From the NCBI RefSeq assembly GCF_001855565.1, contig NZ_MKCR01000008.1:1-64000 (forward strand): a DNA stretch of 64,000 nt. Direction: 5' to 3'. The stretch is from Chromobacterium amazonense (lineage in GTDB: Bacteria > Pseudomonadota > Gammaproteobacteria > Burkholderiales > Chromobacteriaceae). Each line of letters opens with the position of its first letter. The first letter of the stretch is position 1. The notes under the pieces were generated by a model, which was not told where the DNA came from, ran no database searches, and was given only the letters and a program-made list of their open reading frames with translations. Below, one piece after another: positions 60,047-60,259 of this stretch. A program made the position numbers and the translations under genes.

Positions 60047-60259
60047 ATGAAAGCCGAATCGATGTCCCAGTTCTTTCCGCAATATCTGAGCCGGCAGCCT
60101 GCGCTGTTCGGCATCGACCCCGCCGAAGCCATGGCGCAATTGAGCGAGGTGATGCAGTGGCAGAAGGGGACGGGAAAAAAAGCGGCCGGGGATCAAACCC
60201 GGCCAAGGGAGGAGCTGGAGAGGAAACATGCCTGCCCGCGCGCGAGGCGGGCAGGGTAA
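60047..60259 (+). CDS. Small SgrT-like protein, divergent from sgrR
   Basis: A 70-residue ORF with a perfect AAGGAG (60035-60040) and good spacing to the ATG. Residues 6-39 (MSQFFPQYLSRQPALFG ... LSEVMQWQ) align end to end with E. coli SgrT, the 43-residue inhibitor of the glucose PTS permease: MxQF, a Tyr at the same place, and the final LxxxMQW. SgrT is likewise encoded opposite sgrR. The last 25 residues are Arg/Lys-rich and are read through two hairpins that terminate the convergent chitinase gene, so the functional part may be the first 45 residues. I infer an SgrT homologue; identity is modest and the peptide is short. Confidence 0.6.
   Translation: MKAESMSQFFPQYLSRQPALFGIDPAEAMAQLSEVMQWQKGTGKKAAGDQTRPREELERKHACPRARRAG
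60175..60255 (-). terminator. Double hairpin and terminator of the chitinase gene
   Basis: Hairpin one, CCTGCCCGC/GCGGGCAGG (60231-60239, 60247-60255), lies 7 bases after the chitinase stop. Hairpin two, GGCCGGG/CCCGGCC (60184-60190, 60198-60204), is followed on the minus strand by a T-rich run with seven T (60175-60181). Both lie inside the 3' part of the SgrT-like ORF. Confidence 0.82.

Follow-up and report, generated by a model that had tools for sequence, protein, structure and literature searches.

SgrS/SgrT is a textbook dual-function RNA, known from enteric bacteria. The locus described here raises the question of whether the small open reading frame (ORF) lying divergent to sgrR in Chromobacterium amazonense encodes an SgrT and, if so, whether the peptide is found there with or without the SgrS RNA part. 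By "the window" we mean the whole 64,000-nucleotide stretch of DNA that was analysed (contig NZ_MKCR01000008.1, positions 1 to 64,000); its features around the ORF are as follows:

58275..59960, minus strand: sgrR, transcriptional regulator with HTH and solute-binding domain (Pfam and NCBIfam matches)
59961..60046, plus strand: shared sgrR/sgrT control region (from a 35-region alignment; functions of the elements putative)
59984-59997, plus strand: GTCAGCAATTTTTT, a putative element within the sgrR/sgrT control region
60017-60021, plus strand: CAATA, possible -10 region within the sgrR/sgrT control region
60035-60040, plus strand: AAGGAG, putative Shine-Dalgarno sequence before the sgrT-like ORF
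60047-60259, plus strand: ORF for the SgrT homologue (well supported), 70 codons, ATG start
60047..60160, plus strand: codons 1-38 of the SgrT homologue, the conserved core with MQW at its end (conservation, pN/pS and profile comparison)
60161..60259, plus strand: variable C-terminal tail and stop codon of the ORF (comparison among relatives)
60183..60205, minus strand: terminator-like hairpin of the convergent chitinase-like gene, within the ORF tail
60231..60255, minus strand: second terminator-like hairpin of the same gene, within the ORF tail
60263..62671, minus strand: convergent chitinase-like gene (putative name), a neighbour which is outside the circuit as far as is known

The sgrR gene and its divergent ORF

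We regard the identity of the 58275-59960 product as firm: it matches Pfam SgrR_N (8.1e-39) and SBP_bac_5 (3.8e-24), and lies over the cut-off of the NCBIfam SgrR equivalog PRK13626 (613 bits versus 476). By SgrR, the nearest relative of the window is Chromobacterium sinusclupearum, at 96% identity. A second SgrR-like regulator (locus L042, G000:C1:127405-129051) scored 231 bits, which is under the cut-off; it is divergent from an apparent transporter gene, with no peptide seen in between.

The first-pass annotation had pointed to a small ORF with a ribosome binding site, divergent to sgrR, and to a gap of only 3 bases between this ORF and the chitinase gene. Both points hold: the ORF is a conserved gene which starts 86 bases from sgrR and is preceded by AAGGAG, and the 3-base gap separates it from a chitinase-like gene that is convergent with it. 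Using a 45-residue query, the ORF was found in 18 of the 19 genomes of the genus, that of the window included (E values from 5.2e-26 to 0.0013). Conservation beside sgrR, named in advance as one of the points on which the proposal could be refuted, was seen in all 18 genus loci that carry the ORF, and the chitinase-like gene also adjoins it in 16 of these. The 19th genome, G010, has no ORF and also no SgrR match at E<=1e-50. As this Chromobacterium does have a PtsG over the cut-off while lacking the peptide and any strong SgrR match, it represents a natural loss, or an absence, of sgrR-sgrT inside the genus.

Coding constraint was also to be checked. All 18 cores run for 38 codons up to QW, with M1, L14, G22, P25, A28, Q37 and W38 invariant, and the pooled pN/pS of the core (taken over the 25 closest of 153 pairs) is 0.31 in frame, whereas the two shifted frames give 1.10 and 1.40. 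On these ratios the 38-codon core is under purifying selection, a coding constraint from which translation is predicted. Past W38 the tail is variable: relatives differ in its sequence and have between 17 and 43 residues there, and the window carries the two opposite-strand terminator-like hairpins in this part of the ORF; the working part of the ORF is therefore very likely to be codons 1-38. Inverted repeats like these hairpins are visible in relatives, although they were left unscored. An untranslated leader, or a spurious ORF overlapping the chitinase terminators, would fit the shortness of the ORF and the overlap of its variable tail with the hairpins, but is made very improbable by the purifying selection on codons 1-38, by the seven invariant residues and by the match to the SgrT profile described below.

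Homology to SgrT

The likeness to SgrT had at first been placed at residues 6-39. The homology itself stands, by profile match, while the conserved part proves to be codons 1-38 and the ORF has its conserved start at M1 rather than M6; a start a few residues ahead of the (R/Q)QFYQ motif is likewise seen in many enteric SgrT ORFs.

The Pfam profile search which had been suggested gave a divided answer. The window ORF itself has no Pfam or NCBIfam match, even at E 10, and in a six-frame scan none of the 19 genus genomes was over the curated cut-off of PF15894 (SgrT); four sgrT sites appeared in that scan (G005 0.0099, G001 0.11, G018 0.27, G002 0.79), with other places scoring about equal to them. 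When the 18 genus peptides were scanned singly, however, PF15894 matched eight of them, the best at 2.1e-4 and the window ORF not among them, and no other Pfam family matched more than one.

A profile of 17 Chromobacteriaceae peptides was aligned with one of 20 hand-picked SgrT peptides (18 from Enterobacterales, E. coli counted, and two from Aeromonadaceae), giving an hhalign probability of 96.7% and a score of 48.2 at about 18% identity, as against at most 22.8% and 20.2 for 200 column-shuffled profiles. When a Chromobacteriaceae HMM, built without any aeromonad sequence, was run against 186 ORFs, those divergent from sgrR in Paludibacterium G426, three Aquitalea, Aeromonas lusitana and an Aeromonadaceae MAG ranked above the others, behind the HMM's own member G423; the Paludibacterium G424 peptide reached E 0.1 only. 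In the other direction the SgrT-side HMM scores single Chromobacteriaceae peptides weakly (best G423, 0.015). At E<=1e-3 and a database size of 10000, an SgrT ORF was recognised in 20 of the 24 Chromobacteriaceae loci, the three Aquitalea and G424 being those in which it was not. Conservation of MxQF...MQW beside sgrR in other Chromobacteriaceae had been named as a point that would support the proposal. QW is present in 18 of 18 sequences of the genus; MQW is missing from the Aquitalea peptides and from two of the three Paludibacterium peptides.

The sgrR-sgrT intergenic regions align along their length across 35 regions (from Chromobacterium, Paludibacterium, Aquitalea, two aeromonads and ten Enterobacterales, with E. 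coli among the regions), with a CA(G/T)CAATTT element and a CAATA-like element at similar places. Taken together, the profile match with its shuffle control, the Pfam hits in congeners, the intergenic layout and the coding constraint make it well supported that the ORF encodes an SgrT homologue, and probable that it is the sgrT of Chromobacterium. According to a review, SgrT homologues work in E. coli although their sequences are little conserved (PMC4021124); the AlphaFold model of SgrT is a helical hairpin, and SgrT alone is reported to stop uptake (PMC10710835).

A locus lacking a recognisable SgrS part

We defined the SgrS module as CTGAGTA followed by an intrinsic terminator within 70 bases, and looked for it in the 450 bases from the sgrR start. 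It was present in 53 of 66 Enterobacterales regions (E. coli plus 65 loci from the best 80 of 322 relatives, and so a ranked sample) and in none of 2100 shuffled regions; in the same 450-base span it was found in none of the 24 Chromobacteriaceae and none of the four Aeromonadaceae loci, and was also absent from eleven duplicate Chromobacteriaceae loci. The 66 Enterobacterales loci divide into 37 with both parts, 16 with the RNA and no recognised SgrT (Pantoea and others, one of them Yersinia), two with the reverse under a strict rule, and 11 with neither, nine of which are Yersinia. Those with the RNA only (L109, L112, L113, L118, L120, L160 and ten more) show the reverse of the Chromobacterium arrangement.

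Nor did other searches recover an RNA part. No strong plus-strand intrinsic terminator was found in the 450-base regions of the 24 Chromobacteriaceae loci; in the window one weak plus-strand site lies at 60292-60305, inside the chitinase-like gene. Rfam gave no SgrS match at E<=10 across 59500-60800, and none of its eight matches there was at gathering score. RNAduplex energies gave no separation even for E. coli, which served as positive control (z -0.89), and ungapped complementarity was used instead; this recovered the known E. coli seed, with 4 of 200 shuffles as good, which is a modest signal. By this measure none of the 18 genomes showed unusual pairing potential of its sgrT transcript with the start of ptsG, 7 of 100 shuffles being as good even in the lowest case.

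These results support the retention of the peptide without the classical sRNA at the Chromobacterium locus. The earlier idea of a peptide kept while the sRNA was lost survives in its first half, as the SgrS module is in none of the 24 loci, but the loss itself does not follow; the SgrS part may never have existed there. We consider it quite unlikely that the locus specifies an E. coli-type dual-function RNA that has changed past recognition in its pairing region and targets, perhaps with Rho-dependent 3′ ends: SgrS does vary strongly even among enterics (PMC4021124), and our pairing search covered ptsG as the sole target, but this alternative would have to accommodate the absence of the CTGAGTA-plus-terminator module from all 24 loci, of strong plus-strand terminators from the 450-base regions, and, in the 18 genomes compared, of any notable complementarity to the start of ptsG.

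PtsG as the predicted target

The genome of the window encodes a PtsG over the NCBIfam equivalog cut-off (720 bits versus 647), its gene adjoining one for an EIIA-HPr-EI fusion, and a NagE-type EIICB (TIGR01998, 651 bits with a cut-off of 553), whose gene is placed after nagA and a nagB-II-like gene. KTPGRED, the main SgrT contact on PtsG in E. coli (PMC3901232), is present in both and absent from the genome's other three PTS_EIIC loci; across the family it is present in all 30 fetched PtsG loci, out of 34 over the cut-off. The P384R variant of PtsG is reported not to respond to E. coli SgrT (PMC3901232). Of 61 Chromobacteriaceae genomes, SgrR is over its cut-off in 24 and PtsG in 34, and all 24 SgrR genomes fall within the 34 PtsG genomes (Fisher 3e-9, a value which ignores shared ancestry), leaving ten PtsG genomes without SgrR over the cut-off. 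None of the 27 genomes without PtsG over the cut-off has such an SgrR, and in 14 of these 27 the PtsG model gives a weaker match, to a protein of NagE kind. A shift of the main target of the SgrT homologue to the N-acetylglucosamine transporter NagE would suit a chitin-degrading genus, and the NagE-type EIICB does carry KTPGRED and sits in the nagA cluster; the confinement of SgrR to genomes with PtsG, and its absence from those with only a NagE-kind match, make this shift unlikely.

We favour, as a probable reading by analogy with E. coli, a peptide-only SgrR-SgrT circuit for glucose-phosphate stress in which PtsG is the target. Sugar-phosphate stress would lead SgrR to activate the divergent promoter, from which a short mRNA, in which neither an SgrS pairing region nor a terminator is recognisable, would be translated into the small protein. 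Its conserved 38 residues would bind PtsG (EIICB-Glc) at the KTPGRED linker, and glucose import would stop. As the transcript has no recognisable SgrS part, the circuit is predicted to act via the peptide alone. There is a strong case, again by analogy, that the mechanism of the Chromobacterium peptide is that of E. coli SgrT. The first-pass annotation's suggestion of a glucose-phosphate stress module outside the enterics was largely right, with homology, coding and layout supported and function predicted from E. coli SgrT.

Distribution and evolutionary history

In wider draws, SgrR was over the cut-off in two of 399 genomes of the order, each of them from the Chromobacteriaceae, and in the window's own genome alone among 369 drawn from the class; with no other SgrR match, the class draw is uninformative on enterics. 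In a tree of 36 SgrR proteins the Chromobacteriaceae form one group (96/95) apart from the Enterobacterales (100/100), and three of the four Aeromonadaceae adjoin the Chromobacteriaceae (97/98); long aeromonad and outgroup branches leave the root unsure. The simplest reading is one ancient acquisition within the family's ancestry, with a gammaproteobacterium related to the Aeromonadaceae and Enterobacterales as the putative donor. G423 (L059), labelled as of the Paludibacterium genus, has an SgrR inside Chromobacterium and a peptide ending MQW, and its sgrR may possibly reflect transfer within the Chromobacteriaceae.

Other arrangements are also seen. In Paludibacterium G426 (L058:527-1412) the peptide ORF overlaps a same-strand HAD gene by 17 bases, and in G424 (L090:1515-2412), whose peptide resembles SgrT less than any other in the set, it lies 4 bases ahead of one; the best NCBIfam model for both HAD genes is 'sugar phosphatase' PRK11587, at 180 and 172 bits, which is under the cut-off of 282. 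Gene order thus makes an sgrT-phosphatase operon in Paludibacterium possible; as SgrS raises the phosphatase YigL in E. coli (PMC4021124), Paludibacterium may wire both actions in one operon. An SgrT-like ORF in the Aeromonadaceae MAG L093 lies upstream of sgrR and is followed by a same-strand ORF. This second ORF was a candidate for another SgrT-like peptide and was rejected, as we take it to be VOC/glyoxalase-like, with its MQW arising by chance. In Tolumonas, representing two of the four Aeromonadaceae loci, SgrR is present and the peptide was not found.

More tentatively, and with somewhat less than even confidence, we suggest that Aeromonadaceae and Chromobacteriaceae have in common an old brake on sugar-phosphate stress, SgrR-SgrT, which works through protein only and to which lineages added different second arms. 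In Enterobacterales this arm would be the base-pairing SgrS part, in Paludibacterium a sugar phosphatase encoded on the same transcript, and in one aeromonad perhaps the glyoxalase-like protein. If this is true, the dual-function RNA grew around a pre-existing peptide gene.

Comparison with known systems

In the literature searched, with subscription papers mostly outside it, SgrT or SgrR was never found together with Chromobacterium, nor 'glucose-phosphate stress' together with betaproteobacteria, and a search on SgrT homologs and Aeromonas gave nothing bearing on peptide-only loci. Horler and Vanderpool reportedly surveyed SgrS homologues in 2009. Relative to the literature searched, a peptide-only form of SgrT outside the enterics is new. 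A peptide gene conserved in Betaproteobacteria without the RNA part is a natural separation of the two functions; its diverged sequences, in which M1, L14, G22, P25, A28, Q37 and W38 are invariant across the genus, could help to locate PtsG-binding residues; and it becomes testable whether the peptide or the RNA part of the dual-function RNA is the older.

Like the SgrT (PF15894) of E. coli and other Enterobacterales, the Chromobacterium peptide is short and divergent from sgrR, starting 86-102 bases from the sgrR start in most loci, and the two have in common an M...(Q)F(Y/F)..(Y)F/L...L..LMQW pattern. Where enteric SgrT has a WL(A/R) stretch, however, the Chromobacterium peptide has a GxxP turn region, and unlike SgrT it carries a variable tail over the chitinase terminators. 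The Chromobacterium transcript resembles SgrS in encoding a peptide, and presumably in the position of its promoter on the SgrR side, but differs in having no CTGAGTA motif, intrinsic terminator or detectable ptsG pairing. The SgrS loci of Yersinia and Pantoea that lack SgrT are also one-armed, but with RNA and no peptide; SgrS without SgrT has also been reported for Yersinia (PMC4021124). In Vibrio cholerae, a preprint describes DsvR (Vca0578) as an SgrR-like regulator without SgrS, whose reported regulon has sugar uptake and ZapC among its members, and suggests that the SgrR circuit may have come to serve in sugar-phosphate stress by co-option, by way of a small RNA (PMC13060122). The peptide-only loci described here bear on that co-option idea, and the question they raise as to the order of origin is close to the one raised there for the V. 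cholerae SgrR homologue.
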